Below are positions 7,560 to 59,605 of a DNA stretch of 64,000 nt, in pieces. The stretch spans positions 1 to 64,000 of the forward strand of contig NZ_VTWT01000014.1 in assembly GCF_008727925.1 (NCBI RefSeq), in the 5' to 3' direction. Position 1 is the stretch's first letter. The number at the start of each line of letters is the position of its first letter. The notes under the pieces are model-generated. The model did no database searches. It worked only from the letters and a program-made list of their open reading frames with translations, and had not been told where the DNA came from. This DNA comes from Adhaeribacter soli. GTDB lineage: Bacteria > Bacteroidota > Bacteroidia > Cytophagales > Hymenobacteraceae. The position numbers and the translations under genes were made by a program.

Positions 7560-7874
7560 TTAGTTATGCGTTTTATCGCTGGTTGGGTTGCTGCGGGCGT
7601 TATTGCCTTGCAGCGATTGTCCGCCCGAAACCGAATTATGCTGGCTGGAACCGCGACCGGTTGGGTTACCGCCTTTCGGGATATTCCGGTTTGGGTTCTG
7701 CACCGGACTGTCTTCACTCTGAAGCGTCGGGCGGTTATCGCGGGCAGTACCAGTTTTCTGAGGCTTCATTTTTTCATTCTGCTCCTCATTCGGAATCATG
7801 CCTTTTGCCCGCATTTGGTTCATTGCATTCTGGTCTTTATTCGGAATTTTCTTATCAAAATCTTTCATAGCCAT
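7560..7874 (-). CDS. Small hydrophilic, probably disordered protein with strong Shine-Dalgarno
   Basis: The 104-residue product is almost free of hydrophobic residues and rich in N, Q, G, K, S and P, especially after residue 40 (NRNIPKGGNPTGRG), so it is probably intrinsically disordered. I do not recognise a family. An exact AAGGAGG Shine-Dalgarno site (7883-7889 on the minus strand) lies 8 bases before the ATG at 7874, which is unusual for Bacteroidota genes and argues for a real, well-translated gene. A second ATG two codons later would also fit. The small protein at 59606-59827 has the same traits: strong AAGGAGG site, similar composition, GRG and KG motifs. Such small hydrophilic proteins are often stress-related, but that is a guess. 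Confidence 0.65.
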   Translation of the reverse strand: MAMKDFDKKIPNKDQNAMNQMRAKGMIPNEEQNEKMKPQKTGTARDNRPTLQSEDSPVQNPNRNIPKGGNPTGRGSSQHNSVSGGQSLQGNNARSNPTSDKTHN

Positions 7875-7964
7875 GGTTTGGTCCTCCTTAATTAAGTTTG
7901 AACTGTCTGTTATTTTACCATTGGCCAGAGCAATTAGTTACAAACCAGACTTATAAGCAATAAA

Positions 7965-7990
7965 AAAGGGAACCTTACAGCTCCCTTTCT
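7965..7990 (-). terminator. Intrinsic terminator downstream of the PfkB-family kinase
   Basis: On the minus strand AAAGGGAGC and GTTCCCTTT form a stem with a short loop, followed by a run of six T. It lies about 30 bases after the stop codon at 8022. Confidence 0.7.
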
Positions 7991-8021
7991 TCTCAAAATG
8001 CTATGCTTTTAATGCTAAAAA

Positions 8022-8948
8022 CTAAACGGCTGCTTCTACGCTGAAATTCACCAGCTCCACGAACTGCTGCACGCGGGCATCTATTTCTGTCTGCTCCAGG
8101 TTGAGCATGCGCTCGGTGCCGAATTTCTCTACACAGAACGAAGCCATGGCAGAACCGTGAATAATGGCGCGCTTCATATTCTCGAAAGAAATATCGCCGG
8201 TGCTGGCCAGGTAACCAATAAAACCACCCGCAAAGGTATCGCCGGCGCCGGTCGGGTCGAACACATCTTCCAGCGGTAAAGCAGGCGCAAAGAATACTTT
8301 TTCCCCGTGGAACAACAAGGCACCGTGCTCACCTTTCTTAATGATCAGGAATTTCGGCCCCATGGCCATGATTTTCTTGGCAGCCTTCACCAGTGAATAT
8401 TCGCCGGAAAGCTGACGGGCCTCTTCGTCGTTAATGGAAAGTACGTCTACCATCGCAATAGTTTCCAAAAGCTCCGGCAAAGCAATGTCCATCCAGAAGT
8501 TCATGGTATCCATCACGATCAGTTTCGGACGGTTTTTCAGACGCTCGATCACCAGCTTCTGTACCTGTGGCGCCAGATTGCCCAGCATCAGGTACTCGCA
8601 ATTCTGGTAGCTATCCGGAATAACAGGATCGAAACTGCCCAGCACGTTCAATTCCGTTACAAGCGTTTCGCGGCTGTTCATGTCGTTAAAGTAGCGACCG
8701 CTCCAGAAGAAGGATTTTTCATCTTCTTTTATCTGAAGGCCTTCGGTATTCACGCCGTGCTGTTGCAGCAGGGCAATGTCTGACTTCGGAAAATCGCCGC
8801 CTACTACCGCGACCAGGTTTATTGGCTTGGTGAAGTAAGACGAACACAGGGAAATATAGGTAGCGGCGCCGCCAATAATTTTATCGGTTTTTCCGAACGG
8901 GGTTTCCAGTGCATCGAAGGCAACCGAACCAACAACAAGTAAGCTCAT
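8022..8948 (-). CDS. PfkB family carbohydrate/nucleoside kinase
   Basis: This 308-residue ribokinase-fold enzyme transfers phosphate from ATP to a sugar or nucleoside hydroxyl. The N-terminal GSVAFDALETPFG and GGAATYISLC segments match the substrate-binding lid region. The PfkB signature DPTGAGDTFAGGF near residue 230 supplies the anion hole and the catalytic Asp. The exact substrate cannot be read from sequence, and Bacteroidota homologues are usually annotated only as PfkB family or sugar kinases. No operon partner is seen: the gene ends at a terminator (7965-7990) and is separated from tRNA-His by an A+T-rich repeat region. Confidence 0.88.
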   Translation of the reverse strand: MSLLVVGSVAFDALETPFGKTDKIIGGAATYISLCSSYFTKPINLVAVVGGDFPKSDIALLQQHGVNTEGLQIKEDEKSFFWSGRYFNDMNSRETLVTELNVLGSFDPVIPDSYQNCEYLMLGNLAPQVQKLVIERLKNRPKLIVMDTMNFWMDIALPELLETIAMVDVLSINDEEARQLSGEYSLVKAAKKIMAMGPKFLIIKKGEHGALLFHGEKVFFAPALPLEDVFDPTGAGDTFAGGFIGYLASTGDISFENMKRAIIHGSAMASFCVEKFGTERMLNLEQTEIDARVQQFVELVNFSVEAAV

Positions 8949-15200: not shown

Positions 15201-18200
15201 ACGGCGCTGACCATGTAACCATTAAGAACCTGAACATTGAGACCACCGGAACCGGAACCAGCGCCTACGGCTGGGGTATTCATTTCATTAATGGCGCCGA
15301 CAACAATACCATTCTGAACAATACCATTACCATTGGTTCTACCAGCACTACCGAAAGCAATTCGGCCGGTATCGTATTCTCGAACTCTAATACTACTGCC
15401 ACTACTACCGGCAACAATGGCAACAACAACGTAATTTCCGGCAATACGATTACCGGGGGGTATAAAGGGGTAGGGTTGTATGGTTTGTCGACAAGCACAG
15501 GCGCTAACCAGATCTTAAACAATTCCGTACAGGATGTCTACGCTACCGGAATTGAATTAGGAGGTGCTTACGCTACGCTGGTGGAAGGAAACAATATCAG
15601 CCGTCCAACCAGAACAACAGTTGGCACTTTTGAAGGAATAACCTTAAGCGGCGCCACTCAGAACTCCGTTATTACCAAAAACCGGATCCATAATACCCAC
15701 GGAGGAGCTTCCTCTCTTTCCGGCCAGGTTAACGGCATTTATTCTTCCTCCAACGATGCACCGGTCGGTAAAGAAAATATTGTAAGCAACAACCTGATCT
15801 ACAACATCAATAATACCGGTACTATTTATGCCCTGTATAACTCCGGCAGCGCTGGTGTTTTCTACTACCACAATACCGTTCATCTGAACAATACTGCCAA
15901 CACCGGTACAAACCGGGGCTTTTACCAGACTACTGCCGCCACCAATATCCGGATCATCAACAACATGATAACGATAGCCGGCGGCACCACCGGAGCTAAG
16001 CACGCCCTGTATTTCGGAACCACAACTTCCGGTATTACCAGCAACCGCAATAACCTTTACCTGACGGGCGGTTCCAGCTCCAGCGGCGTTGGATTTTATT
16101 CCAGCAATCAGGCTACCTTAGCCAACTGGAAAACAGCAAACGGAGGCGCTTATGACCAGAACAGCATAAGCGAAGACCCGGATTATGTAACTACCGCTGG
16201 CGGCGACAACCTGAAGCCAAATTCCCCGGCCGTAAACAACCTGGGCCAGAACCTGCTTACCGTAGTTCCACAGGATGTACTGAACGTAAACCGGACCACC
16301 ACGCCGGATATGGGAGCGTATGAGTTTACCCCACCAGCTACCGCCGATGCCGGAATTACTGCCATTCTTTCGCCAGGAATTTCACTGGCTCCGGGAACGA
16401 ATGCCCCGATCCAGGTTACACTGAAAAACTTTGGCGGTGCACCGTTAACTTCTGCTACTGTTAAATTCAGCATTAATGGTACGGTAATCGGTTCTCCTTT
16501 TAACTTTACGCAAACGCCAGGCCTGGCCACCAATGCTTCTACCACTATTACCATTGGCAATTATACGTTTGCTACCGGCGGCACCTATACGTTACGAGCC
16601 TTTACCGAATTGCCGAACGGCACTACCGACATAGATCCGACCAACAACTTTACCGAAATAACGATAAGCGTTTGCAGTCCGCTTTCCGGTACCAAGACCA
16701 TTGGCGGAACTCCGGCGGCAAACAATTACTATGCTACCTTTACCGATGCGGTAAAAGCACTGGTGGATTGCGGAGTAAGCGGACCTGTAACCTTTAACGT
16801 GGCAGCCGGTACCTACAACGAGCAAATTACAATCCCGGAAATTACCGGTGCCTCTGCTACCAACAGAATTACGTTTAATGGTAATGGCAGAACTATTGGC
16901 TTTACTTCAGCTAATACAAACCAGCGCGCTGTTATCAAGCTCGATGGCGCCGACTATATTACCCTGAATAATCTGGTAATAGATGCAACTTCCGGCACCT
17001 ACGGCTGGGGTATTCATTTAACCAATGGCGCCAACAACAACACCATTACCAACAACACCATCAACAGCAGCCTTACCAGTACCTTAAATAACTTCAGCGG
17101 CATTGTGGCCAGCGGTTCAAATACTGCTGCTACTACCGATGGTGTGAACGCCAGCAACACTACCATTACCGGCAACACCGTGAATGGAGGCTACTATGGT
17201 ATTATTCTGGTGGGCAACGGCGCTACCGGCCAGGCTATCGGCAATACGGTAATGAACAACACGGTGAAGAATTTCTATAATTACGGTATTTATTCAGATG
17301 GCCAGAATGGTACGGTAATAAGCGGGAATGACATCCATCGGTTAGACCGGGCCTCGGCCAGCTTGTCATCTTTCTATGGAATTTATGGTACTACCAGCAA
17401 AAACCTGCTGATCGAGAAAAACAAGATCCACGATCCGTTTGCTAACAACAATGCCAGCACCAGCTTAGCTTACGGCATCTACTTTACCACAAACGATGCC
17501 GCCGCTGGTTCCGAAAACAAAGTGATTAACAACCTGATCTACAACATTAAAAATAATGGTTTGGCTTACGGCATTTATAACTCAGGCTCAGATGGCGCTT
17601 ATTACTACCACAACACCATCGACCTGAACCACCCGGCCAATACTAGCACCGTTCGCGGCTTCTACCAGACAACTGCCGCCACCAACATTGTATTTAAAAA
17701 CAACAACGTGACCGTTACCGGCGGAACCACTGGCGTAAAACATGCTATTTACTTCGGAACGAATGCTACCGGTATTGTTTCGGACAACAATAACCTGTAC
17801 CTGACCGGCGGCGCAAGCGGCAGTGGCATTGGCTACCTGACTTCCAACAGAGTAACCCTGGCTGACTGGACAACCGCAACCAGTGACGATGCAAACAGTG
17901 TAAGCGGTGATCCGGGATATGTAAGCGCTGCTACCGGAAACCTGAAACCTACCAGCGGAATCCTGAATAACAAGGGCGCCAACGTGGGAGTAACCACTGA
18001 CTTTACAGGCGCATCCCGTAATGCAACTACTCCAGATCCGGGCGCTTATGAATTCAATGCACCATCGTGCGTGGCCGGCCAGTGGACAGGAGCGGTATCT
18101 ACCGACTGGACCAATGCTGGTAACTGGTGCGGAGGTATATTGCCAACACTAACCACCGATGTTCTAATACCGGCAGGCACACCGTTCTCGCCCGTAATTT

Positions 18201-56709: not shown

Positions 56710-57912
56710 ATGGGTAAGCAAAAATCTTACGAAACCGCCAAAGAACAGGAAACTGCTGTGCTGGTAGCGGTAACCCGCAAAACACAACCCGAAGAAAAAA
56801 CCCGGGAATACCTGGATGAACTGGCTTTTTTAACCGAAACTGCCGGCGCCAAAACCCTGAAACGCTTTTCACAAAAACTGGAGAAACCCGATACCAAAAC
56901 CTTTGTAGGTTCCGGAAAGTTGGCCGAGATCAAAGCCTATGTAAAGGAGCACGACGTGAACATGGTGATCTTCGACGATGACCTGAGCCCTTCCCAACTC
57001 CGCAACCTGGAGACCGAGCTGGAAGTGAAGATTGTTGACCGGAGCTTATTGATCCTGGATATTTTTGCCCTCCGTGCCCAAACAGCCCAAGCGCGTACCC
57101 AGATCGAAATGGCCCAGTACCAGTATTTACTGCCCCGCCTTACCGGTTTATGGACGCACTTAAGCAAGCAAAAAGGGGGTATCGGCATGAAAGGTCCGGG
57201 GGAAACGGAGATCGAGACCGACCGCCGGATCGTGCGGGAACGCATCTCGTTGCTGAAAGAAAAACTAAAGGAGATCGACAAACAGAATTTTCAGCAGCGG
57301 AAAGCGCGGACCAACCTGGTGCGGGTGGCGCTGGTGGGTTATACCAACGTGGGAAAATCTACCATCATGAACCTGCTTTCCAAATCGGATGTGTTCGCGG
57401 AAAACAAGCTGTTTGCTACCGTAGACGCCACCGTGCGGAAAGTGGTGCTGAACAACGTGCCCTTCCTGCTTTCCGATACGGTAGGGTTTATCCGGAAATT
57501 ACCGACCAAACTCATCGAAAGCTTTAAATCTACCCTGGACGAAGTGCGCGAAGCCGACCTGCTGGTGCACGTGGTAGATATTTCGCATCCTTCGTTTGAA
57601 GAGCATATTGAAGTGGTGAACCGCACGCTGGAAGAAATTAACGCCGGCGACAAGCCCATTCTGTTGGTATTTAATAAAATTGACCAGTACCGCGAACAGG
57701 AAATGGAAGAACTTAACGACATGGGAGAAGGCGCCGAAAAACCAACGCTGCAGGAAATGCGGGCTACCTACATGGCCAAAATGCACAACCCGGCCATTTT
57801 TATTTCTGCTTCCAAGCGTATTAATATCGAGGAACTCCGCGAAGAATTATTCAAACGCGTTTCCGAAGTACATTACCAGCGTTTCCCAAATAACCTGCCG
57901 CCGGAGGAATAA
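56710..57912 (+). CDS. hflX: Ribosome-associated GTPase HflX
   Basis: HflX splits stalled or stressed 70S ribosomes. The 400-residue protein has the N-terminal HflX domain (LAFLTETAGAKTLKRFSQKLEKPD; TFVGSGKLAEIK), the GKGPGET-like segment (GIGMKGPGETEIETDRR) and a G domain. In the G domain G1 is GYTNVGKST, G3 DTVGFIRKLP and G4 NKID. A C-terminal domain of about 60 residues completes it. It is cytoplasmic and monocistronic, with a strong terminator hairpin after the stop. The A+T-rich cassette-like segment begins about 200 bp downstream. Confidence 0.95.
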   Translation: MGKQKSYETAKEQETAVLVAVTRKTQPEEKTREYLDELAFLTETAGAKTLKRFSQKLEKPDTKTFVGSGKLAEIKAYVKEHDVNMVIFDDDLSPSQLRNLETELEVKIVDRSLLILDIFALRAQTAQARTQIEMAQYQYLLPRLTGLWTHLSKQKGGIGMKGPGETEIETDRRIVRERISLLKEKLKEIDKQNFQQRKARTNLVRVALVGYTNVGKSTIMNLLSKSDVFAENKLFATVDATVRKVVLNNVPFLLSDTVGFIRKLPTKLIESFKSTLDEVREADLLVHVVDISHPSFEEHIEVVNRTLEEINAGDKPILLVFNKIDQYREQEMEELNDMGEGAEKPTLQEMRATYMAKMHNPAIFISASKRINIEELREELFKRVSEVHYQRFPNNLPPEE

Positions 57913-57974: not shown

Positions 57975-58133
57975 TGTTTTTGGGAGTTTTGGTATTTGTG
58001 TTATATTGGATACTTAAATCCGGGTTTAATTATTGGACGGTAGGGTTTACAAGAGAAAAACCTACACACATAAGGCAGATAAGTGTAGTAGTGTTGTTTA
58101 TATGGTAGTTGTGGTGCATTAAATAAAAAATAA

Positions 58134-58406
58134 ATGCCAATAAAAATTTACATAGAAGAATCTGGCGAAGAATTGGATTGGCTCTGTGATAGCATATGGG
58201 ATTTACCAAATCAAATTGACGCTCTTGAAAAATGGTTAGATTTAATAGGGGCAGCTTTAATCCCAAATAAATACGTGGCAGATATTGCGTTTGACATTCG
58301 TAAAGATGCTATTGGAGGAGGCGGAGTATTAAAATCAAAATCAATGAAGATTATGGGAACAATAGGAATGGACGTGTTTTTCTCAGAATACCCTTCAATC
58401 GATTAA
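58134..58406 (+). CDS. Hypothetical protein in candidate cassette A, 90 residues
   Basis: I do not recognise this small acidic, soluble protein. Its N-terminal half reads MPIKIYIEESGEELDWL and a leucine/tryptophan-rich stretch (IDALEKWLDLIGAAL) follows. A glycine patch (IGGGGVLKSKSMKIMG) lies near residue 62. The coding sequence is A+T-rich next to hflX, and no Shine-Dalgarno is seen; the sequence before the ATG is A-rich. The start lies 25 bases after the presumed cassette boundary, as in many integron cassettes. It is followed by the next small gene after 10 bases, so the two are co-transcribed. An immunity or antitoxin-type role is possible but unsupported. Confidence 0.6.
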   Translation: MPIKIYIEESGEELDWLCDSIWDLPNQIDALEKWLDLIGAALIPNKYVADIAFDIRKDAIGGGGVLKSKSMKIMGTIGMDVFFSEYPSID

Positions 58407-58416
58407 ATAAGTAAGA

Positions 58417-58671
58417 ATGACAGAATTTAGAAATGATAACCTTACGGCTGAGGATGCCTTTTGGGTTATGTGGTACTTCCTGCAAGAACATTATGAACTC
58501 TCAAACAACACCTTTGACGTAAGTGATATCCTAAGCGCTTCAGAACCGATGGACTGGGACGGAAGCAGAATAAAAAGGCCTGCAGATAATGGTATGGTAG
58601 ATTTCTGGAATGAAGCGGTCGAAAAATATAAAAGAGAAGGAAAACCAGATTGGAAGCAATTAAAAAAATAA
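58417..58671 (+). CDS. Hypothetical protein in candidate cassette A, 84 residues
   Basis: An unrecognised, acidic, helical-looking protein begins MTEFRNDNLTAEDAFWVMWYF and has an aspartate/tryptophan-rich middle (SASEPMDWDGSRIKRP). Its basic C-terminal helix reads YKREGKPDWKQLKK. Its codons are A+T-rich like its upstream partner. The TAA stop ends at 58671, directly at the left end of the attC-like palindrome. There is no signal peptide. The protein could be a partner of the preceding gene product, but nothing in the sequence assigns a function. Confidence 0.6.
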   Translation: MTEFRNDNLTAEDAFWVMWYFLQEHYELSNNTFDVSDILSASEPMDWDGSRIKRPADNGMVDFWNEAVEKYKREGKPDWKQLKK

Positions 58672-58675
58672 CGTA

Positions 58676-58741
58676 CCACAACAAGGTATAAAAACCAAAC
58701 TTCAGCTTCGCCTTGTTCGCTTTTTATACTAGACGTTGTAC
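58676..58741 (+). repeat. attC-like palindrome 1
   Basis: The site has nested arms. R'' CCACAAC (58676-58682) faces R' GTTGTAC (58735-58741), sharing five paired bases, ACAAC with GTTGT. L'' GTATAAAAA (58686-58694) pairs perfectly with L' TTTTTATAC (58721-58729). Spacers are three and five bases. The 26-base centre is not palindromic, as in attC variable regions. The mismatch between R'' and R' is expected, because R' beyond the G belongs to the next cassette. Confidence 0.65.
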
Positions 58742-59499
58742 CAAATTTATAATTATGAAAAACCTGATGATAATGCTTATCCTATTTCTATTAACTGTAG
58801 GAGCAAAAGCACAGGTTGGAATTATTCAGGATGATGACGGTTACACAAATGTCCGGGAGAAACCAAATGGACAATCTTCTATCATTCATAAATTATATAA
58901 TAATGAAGCGTTTTGGTTTGATTACGAAGAAGGGATAGACATAAATGAATGGATACCTATTTGTATCCCAAAGAATTCTTTTTCATTCAGTTCTACCCAA
59001 CCAGATTGTATAAGTGGTTTTATACATAAATCAAAGTTAAAACCATTAGATAAACTACAGACTTTTAAAGGAGCTGACTTCAAATTTGAATACGTAATCG
59101 AGCCTTTTAAACTGAATAACAGAATTGTAGATAGGTATAATAATGCAGTAGTTGCTATCTCGGGTAGACCAGTTTGGGGAACTGATGGGGACTTTCCAAA
59201 AACGCAAGTTAAAAGTGTTAATGCCAGCGTAAAAGGTAAAAAGATTGAAATACACAGAGCTCTCTATAGCGACATTTACGAATGCACAAATACTTTTAAG
59301 GTTTATAAAAACGGGGATTCTTTTATAGTATATCAATGGAATAGTGATGGAGCAGGTGCCTATCAAATAGTTTGGGTATTTTCCAAGGATGAACTTAAGC
59401 AAAGATTGGTAGGAACAAGAATATAAAGAAAAACAAGGTACAACCACGTGTAAACTTTATGCTTCGGCTGAAGCCTCGCACACAGTTTACACAAGTACG
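58736..59499 (+). mobile_element. Integron-type gene cassette B (one secreted protein gene), candidate
   Basis: The unit runs from TTGTAC (58736-58741) to the G at 59499. Its R'' box GTACAAC (59438-59444) is an exact complement of GTTGTAC formed by G plus its own 5' end, the arrangement of a cassette that can close into a circle. It holds one gene, 58755-59426. Beyond 59499 the bases TTAAAA no longer match R'', which would fit the end of the array where chromosomal sequence resumes. Confidence 0.6.
58755..59426 (+). CDS. Secreted SH3-like domain protein in candidate cassette B
   Basis: The 223-residue protein has a signal peptide (MKNLMIMLILFLLTVGAKA) and then an SH3b-like segment (GIIQDDDGYTNVREKPNGQSSIIHKL), a fold often found in envelope and periplasmic proteins that bind peptidoglycan or other ligands. 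The middle and C-terminal parts (FKFEYVIEPFKLNNRIV; YQIVWVFSKDELKQR) are not recognised. I chose the ATG at 58755 because the signal peptide starts there, although the frame is open to 58713 inside the attC-like site. It is strongly A+T-rich. It should be exported to the periplasm or surface. Function is unknown. Confidence 0.65.
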   Translation: MKNLMIMLILFLLTVGAKAQVGIIQDDDGYTNVREKPNGQSSIIHKLYNNEAFWFDYEEGIDINEWIPICIPKNSFSFSSTQPDCISGFIHKSKLKPLDKLQTFKGADFKFEYVIEPFKLNNRIVDRYNNAVVAISGRPVWGTDGDFPKTQVKSVNASVKGKKIEIHRALYSDIYECTNTFKVYKNGDSFIVYQWNSDGAGAYQIVWVFSKDELKQRLVGTRI

Positions 59500-59505
59500 T
59501 TAAAA
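59438..59505 (+). repeat. attC-like palindrome 2
   Basis: R'' GTACAAC (59438-59444) is followed after three bases by L'' GTGTAAACT (59448-59456), which pairs perfectly with L' AGTTTACAC (59484-59492). Six bases later comes the core GTT (59499-59501). The centre carries a GCTTC/GAAGC hairpin (59461-59474). The plan and spacer lengths match site 1. Confidence 0.65.
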
Positions 59506-59605
59506 ATCCAATAATCCAAACGCTACTTTCACCGTAAAACATAACCAAAGCCTGTAATAAATAACTGGCTATTAATGTTTTACACCATAGAAGGAGGAAA
59601 AAGCC

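Follow-up and report, generated by a model that had tools for sequence, protein, structure and literature searches.

Chromosomal integrons consist of the integrase IntI, its capture site attI and an array of gene cassettes separated by attC sites. The substrate of recombination is the bottom strand of attC (PMC2727003), and in IntI complexes the I2 helix contacts an extrahelical G of the folded site (PMC3053210). The I2 helix has been called necessary for cassette capture, has been described as present in no other protein and is regarded as the innovation behind the single-strand recombination of integrons (PMC7790495). Its role is without direct proof because deletion of I2 kills IntI1 (PMC7790495). 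Within a subgroup of 'integron-like' tyrosine recombinases the integron insertion is incompletely conserved (PMC8138268). The presence of integrons in Bacteroidota is accepted in general (PMC8618304, PMC9024848), and one complete integron, that of Salinibacter, has been named for Bacteroidetes (PMC9024848).

The locus described here lies in a 64-kb stretch of the Adhaeribacter soli genome, called the window below. It belongs to an integron-like gene-collecting system that is widespread in Bacteroidota and whose driving enzyme seems to be a recombinase without the I2 region.

The cassette locus behind hflX

The hflX gene ends at position 57912 of the window and is followed by a hairpin, a leader and two units on the same strand (Table 1). 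The two site hairpins were found where the original prediction had placed them, with perfect inner stems of 9 bp. They are built to a common plan: AAC, 3 bases, the stem, a loop, 5-6 bases and GTT. In both units the R'' box is complementary to the first bases of its own cassette, an 'own-start' match, as had been claimed, but the match is 8 bases long, one more than the length originally given. The array ends at site 2, also as predicted: the sequence after the second unit is GTTAAAAA, and no further own-start match follows. The boundary sequence GTTGTAC differs from GTTRRRY by one base.

The cassettes have a G+C content of 36.5% and 34.2%, respectively, compared to 48.0% for the window. The bottom strand of each site gives the stabler fold, with -10.6 versus -5.4 kcal/mol for the top strand in site 1 and -12.3 versus -9.8 kcal/mol in site 2. 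The attI-like leader 5' of unit 1, which the original prediction overlooked, is present as a single copy in the window, where none is expected by chance. No recombinase ORF is found near the array in the part of the window that was read (56-64 kb). The region downstream of hflX is rearranged in G001, the single congeneric genome compared, which holds no empty site for the window locus.

Table 1. Features of the cassette locus (window positions; a slash marks the point of cutting)
Feature	Position	Strand	Evidence
Candidate -7 box, TATATTGG, of a putative Pc-like promoter reading into the array	58002..58009	+	predicted from sequence alone
attI-like leader, GCAGATAAGTGTAGTAGTGTTGTTTATATGGTAG/TT	58076..58110	+	about 12 copies in the same genome; in other genera, recombinase genes are followed by related sequence
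Capture point in the leader	between G58108 and T58109	+	
Gene cassette 1, 627 bp	58109..58735	+	own-start match of 8/8 bases, GTTGTGGT (58108-58115) to R'' (58675-58682)
Cassette 1 ORF, 90 aa	58134..58406	+	no Pfam family above cut-off
Cassette 1 ORF, 84 aa	58417..58671	+	relatives in other families, one within its own cassette; no Pfam family above cut-off
attC-like site 1, R'' ACCACAAC, hairpin AAC-AAG-GTATAAAAA...TTTTTATAC-TAGAC-GTT	58675..58742, AAC..GTT core 58680-58737	+	model R1, E = 8.5e-12
Cut in attC-like site 1	between G58735 and T58736	+	
Gene cassette 2, 764 bp	58736..59499	+	own-start match of 8/8 bases, GTTGTACC (58735-58742) to R'' (59437-59444)
Cassette 2 ORF, 223 aa	58755..59426	+	apparent signal peptide; weak SH3_3 match below cut-off; no Pfam family above cut-off
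attC-like site 2, R'' GGTACAAC, hairpin AAC-CAC-GTGTAAACT...AGTTTACAC-AAGTAC-GTT	59437..59506, AAC..GTT core 59442-59501	+	model R1, E = 4.7e-15

The claim that two such pairs in a row are unlikely by chance was upheld by reversed and swapped controls and by a covariance model of sites from other genomes. On the + strand of the window, 2 of the 6 palindromic AAC..GTT candidates with 8-bp arms have an own-start match within 2.5 kb; none of the 2 on the - strand or the 9 in the reversed sequence has one. A given GTT-8-mer occurs in about 3% of comparable upstream stretches. When 30 sites were taken from many arrays on structure only, own-start matches were present in 26; swapping the R'' boxes between sites left a mean of 3.0 and a maximum of 9. 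The covariance model R1 was built from 32 sites, all from other genomes, and in the 64 kb it detects both window sites (Table 1), the next best place having E = 2. Base pairs are formed in 90.8% of the cells of the R1 alignment, and 64 cells carry two-sided changes that keep the pair. None of 500 shuffles reaches this number, and structures slid by 1-3 columns give 4 to 9.

Recombinase genes, leaders and arrays

The A. soli genome was searched by pattern, by model and by stretches. An intact tyrosine recombinase gene coding for 525 aa is located on another contig than the window (C8:524560-526134). About 110 bp behind it stands a copy of the leader (C8:526244-526276), and chained cassettes follow. 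Several further copies of the leader are present in the congeneric genome G001. An own-start cassette comes directly after the leader in the window and after its copies on C10, C15 and C1; the bases 5' of the first C10 cassette are nearly equal to the window leader. Five copies, on C8, C9, C12 and C13, have no site behind them under the rule applied. Several copies (G000:C10:424309-424383, C15:164319, C1:134110 and others) are preceded by a palindrome, ACGTTTATCC...GGATAAACGT, which resembles an attC-type hairpin; the window copy has only the 3' part.

Of 59 relatives, 29 have homologues of the recombinase. For 21 copies of the gene the 300 kb on the 3' side were scanned: 60 sites lie on the coding strand and 2 on the opposite strand, compared to 9 on both strands of the reversed sequence. 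Sites lie 3' of the gene in 15 of these 21 loci; in the other 6, about a third, none is detected. The first cassette found begins 64-252 bp behind the stop codon in nine loci, and the arrays can be long (about 15 cassettes in 19 kb in G033, 9 in G021 and 8 in G011). A separate genome collection gave 36 mostly Bacteroidota loci, including Rufibacter, Flavobacterium, Algoriphagus and Winogradskyella; 3' of these genes the coding strand has 24 sites and the opposite strand none, compared to 4 in the reversed sequence. A decayed second copy of the gene on C10 (211115-211714) has sites behind it as well. When co-occurrence was scored with model R1, all 10 genomes of the window's family with short sites carried the recombinase and all 7 genomes of genus g5 had neither, although these counts are phylogenetically non-independent.

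Different genera of the family share a conserved stretch between the stop codon and the first cassette, with TAG/TT at its end. In 6 of 10 loci a TAnnTTnG box, similar to the candidate -7 box of the window, stands 11-12 bp behind the recombinase stop codon; this box is a possible cassette promoter.

Dozens of arrays follow the own-start rule, which bears out the reading of the window units as integron-like cassettes with attC-type sites. In L125 and L121 the sites are chained: an R'' box there matches a start made up of the bases that follow the GTT of the preceding site. The predicted breakpoints between G and TT proved to be those at which duplicated cassettes in other genomes end. Within one array of G021 two cassettes are identical over 767/767 bp, and in G033 a 680-bp cassette is duplicated at 99.7%; in both cases the neighbours differ and the copies end at G/TT. 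A cassette of about 560 bp is common to two genera (G006 and G007) at 88%. The sites, their chaining, the leader, the exact-ended duplicates and the link between arrays and a recombinase gene are established, as far as sequence comparison can establish them.

In Paenibacillus sp. NFR01 (L337) and a Spirochaetota MAG (L335), the gene of the homologue is followed by an own-start site at a distance of 117 and 112 bp, respectively. The arrangement of recombinase and array may reach past Bacteroidota. Two genes for Arr-type rifampin ADP-ribosyltransferases are situated near the C10 cassette arrays (L195, G000:C10:412000-431900; + coordinates 7604-8050 and 15971-16417, - strand). They are 93% identical to each other, and one matches PF12120 with E = 1.2e-48. 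Arr genes are known integron cargo.

The original prediction proposed to look for further GTTGTAC-bounded palindromes; a loose search of the A. soli genome returned background only, because each cassette has boundary bases of its own. A pattern based on the stems of the window sites matched 7 of 345 genomes, with one control match overall, and four of the matches are in the A. soli genome, two of them on C10. A search of 194 genomes with a guessed inner stem (GGTTT/AAACC) gave chance matches. A relative of the 84-aa ORF of unit 1, from another family of the same order, occupies its own cassette with a different site of 124 bp and an own-start match of 10/10 bases. By BLAST, copies of this 124-bp site were detected in 54 of 296 genomes from the phylum, and in the best copies the homology runs almost exactly from AAC to GTT and the neighbours differ. 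In plasmid records the long site was not found, two matches being weak and partial. Sites of 44 and 120 bases are mixed in one chained array in L198.

The long (124-bp) attC-like sites are more than 90% identical over many genera, for example in L087, L088 and L096. In this they resemble the VCR sites within Vibrio. Repeated palindromes of another kind, AACAGCGGTTTC...GAAAACCTAGTTGTT, were noticed at G111:C19:282-331 and G204:C8:173558-173607, with three copies in G111. They look like a separate REP-type family.

The recombinase and its sites beside IntI and attC

The IntI-type recombinase that the original prediction proposed to seek was not found: no IntI exceeds the curated cut-off in the A. 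soli genome, and the enzyme associated with the arrays belongs to a distinct clade without the IntI insertion. The recombinase scores 196.5 on the integron integrase model, compared to a cut-off of 265. It also stays below the cut-offs of the equivalog models for XerC (184.2 versus 335), XerD (179.8 versus 329.6) and XerA (NF040815, 199.2 versus 220). About 40 residues, including the I2 region, are absent in all homologues when these are aligned with 20 or so IntI sequences of the phylum. The catalytic residues are invariant. In the tree the IntI clade has support of 100/100 and the Bacteroidia recombinases stand apart at 94/89, with rooting weakened by long branches.

The predicted fold (mean pLDDT 80) can be superimposed onto Vibrio cholerae IntI (2a3v) with a Z score of 21.5 and an rmsd of 2.5 over 259 residues; the top Foldseek match is XerA. 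The 525-aa protein carries two extra tandem modules at its N terminus (residues 48-240, L247), each with the topology beta-beta-alpha-beta-beta-alpha. The modules have no significant match in the PDB, where the HARP domain of SMARCAL1 (4o66) came up at E = 0.32 and a probability of 0.51. A homologue of 284 aa (L269) is without these modules and has a long array.

The sites were compared with those beside IntI in one scan of the phylum. The first IntI contigs gave few arrays under a strict rule; other contigs gave many once a stem mismatch was allowed, and the comparison of bulges was made for this reason. Of 30 sites beside IntI, 25 have a stem that is interrupted after exactly 6 bp, and 9 clearly have a single-base bulge on the 5' arm, which corresponds to the classical extrahelical base. 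The sites of the other recombinase have an L-box bulge in 0 of 66 cases, and in 45 the stem is uninterrupted for at least 8 bp. As in attC, it is the bottom strand that folds more stably in 71 of 79 sites. Since it is the I2 helix of IntI that contacts the extrahelical G, the absence of I2 and the absence of the bulge fit together. The name 'attC-type' used at first is justified by the AAC/GTT cores and the own-start matches, but the sites are called attC-like here, and not canonical attC, because the extrahelical base of the L box is absent.

Proposed mechanism and comparison with known systems

The two cassettes of the window most probably form a remote array that belongs to an integron-like system and is served in trans by a non-canonical integrase. 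The C8 recombinase would capture circular cassettes at the attI-like leaders (GTAG/TT), and cassettes would be excised or shuffled by recombination between the hairpin attC-like sites, with a cut between G and TT. Each free cassette would close on itself, which would be why the R'' box pairs with the cassette's own first bases. The leader probably has a role like that of Pc in integrons and provides a promoter. We infer that it is the C8 recombinase that performs the reaction, in trans on the window locus and with the folded bottom strand as substrate. We do not class the system with the IntI integrons, since tests for two of their defining features gave a negative result. The broader proposal is that Bacteroidia hold a separate functional class of integrons, with a clade of I2-less recombinases, bulge-free hairpin attC sites and attI-like leaders, in which cassette recombination on single strands arose either without the I2 insertion or ahead of it; we give this proposal an even chance of being right.

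The same recombinase might instead act on double-stranded sites in the manner of Xer, the hairpins serving only to regulate or protect them. The missing I2 region, the grouping of the enzyme apart from IntI, the top Foldseek match to XerA and the lack of the L-box extrahelical base that I2 contacts in IntI complexes (PMC3053210) agree with such a mechanism. It is nevertheless judged unlikely, since the bottom strand folds more stably in nearly all sites (71/79), and the covarying inner stems, together with an R box that tracks the cassette and not a fixed sequence, fit the recognition of structure.

Highly doubtful is an origin of the window as a CALIN in the strict sense, in which a canonical IntI, since lost or residing in another host, made an off-target insertion and no resident enzyme is involved. 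The sites are 0.76 kb apart without an integrase, which places them within the definition of a CALIN (two or more attC sites spaced by less than 4 kb and not accompanied by an integrase), and to this extent the CALIN idea of the original prediction holds. Canonical IntI is present in 84 of 296 genomes of the phylum, although nearly all of these are outside the class of the window, and long-type sites occur in both groups. Against such an origin, the cassettes begin at a conserved attI-like sequence and not at scattered places, and of its dozen or so copies in this genome one stands behind a different, intact recombinase. Arrays directly behind the recombinase gene in nine loci and short sites without the IntI-type bulge also argue against it.

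That the hairpins are terminators or REP-type repeats with accidental boundary matches deserves practically no credence, common as hairpins are at gene ends, because this reading is refuted by own-start matches far in excess of the swapped and reversed controls, every cassette has a different match, the sites chain, cassettes are exactly duplicated and no Rfam family reaches its threshold for the window hairpins.

The system is a natural test of how integrons work, as its recombinase seems to be without a part thought essential for them. A cassette system with an I2-less recombinase, and with sites without the base onto which I2 docks, would allow a direct test of the claim made for I2. It would also expose a hidden pool of cassettes in a phylum for which few integrons have been reported in surveys. 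The pairing of this enzyme with these sites is described in no paper found in a search that lacked preprints and most subscription journals, and priority is not established.

Like chromosomal integrons, the system has short, promoterless-looking cassettes on one strand, AAC..GTT cores cut at G/TT, R'' boxes complementary to the cassette's own start over up to 10 bases, hairpins with a stabler bottom strand and an attI-like capture site beside a tyrosine recombinase gene; in the window the leader is present without an adjacent gene. Unlike in IntI integrons, the recombinase lacks the I2 region and forms a separate clade, its gene shares the strand of the cassettes and lies 5' of the capture site, the L box has no extrahelical base, and about 12 capture sites are scattered over one genome. 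The window resembles a CALIN in having two cassettes and no integrase nearby, and differs from it by the attI-like leader 5' of the cassettes and by a likely enzyme encoded elsewhere in the genome. With Xer/XerA-type and 'integron-like' simple tyrosine recombinases (PMC8138268) the enzyme shares a SAM-like core-binding domain and a catalytic domain, XerA and IntI being the nearest folds. It is set apart from these recombinases by its association with cassette arrays and, in the A. soli copy, by the two extra N-terminal modules.
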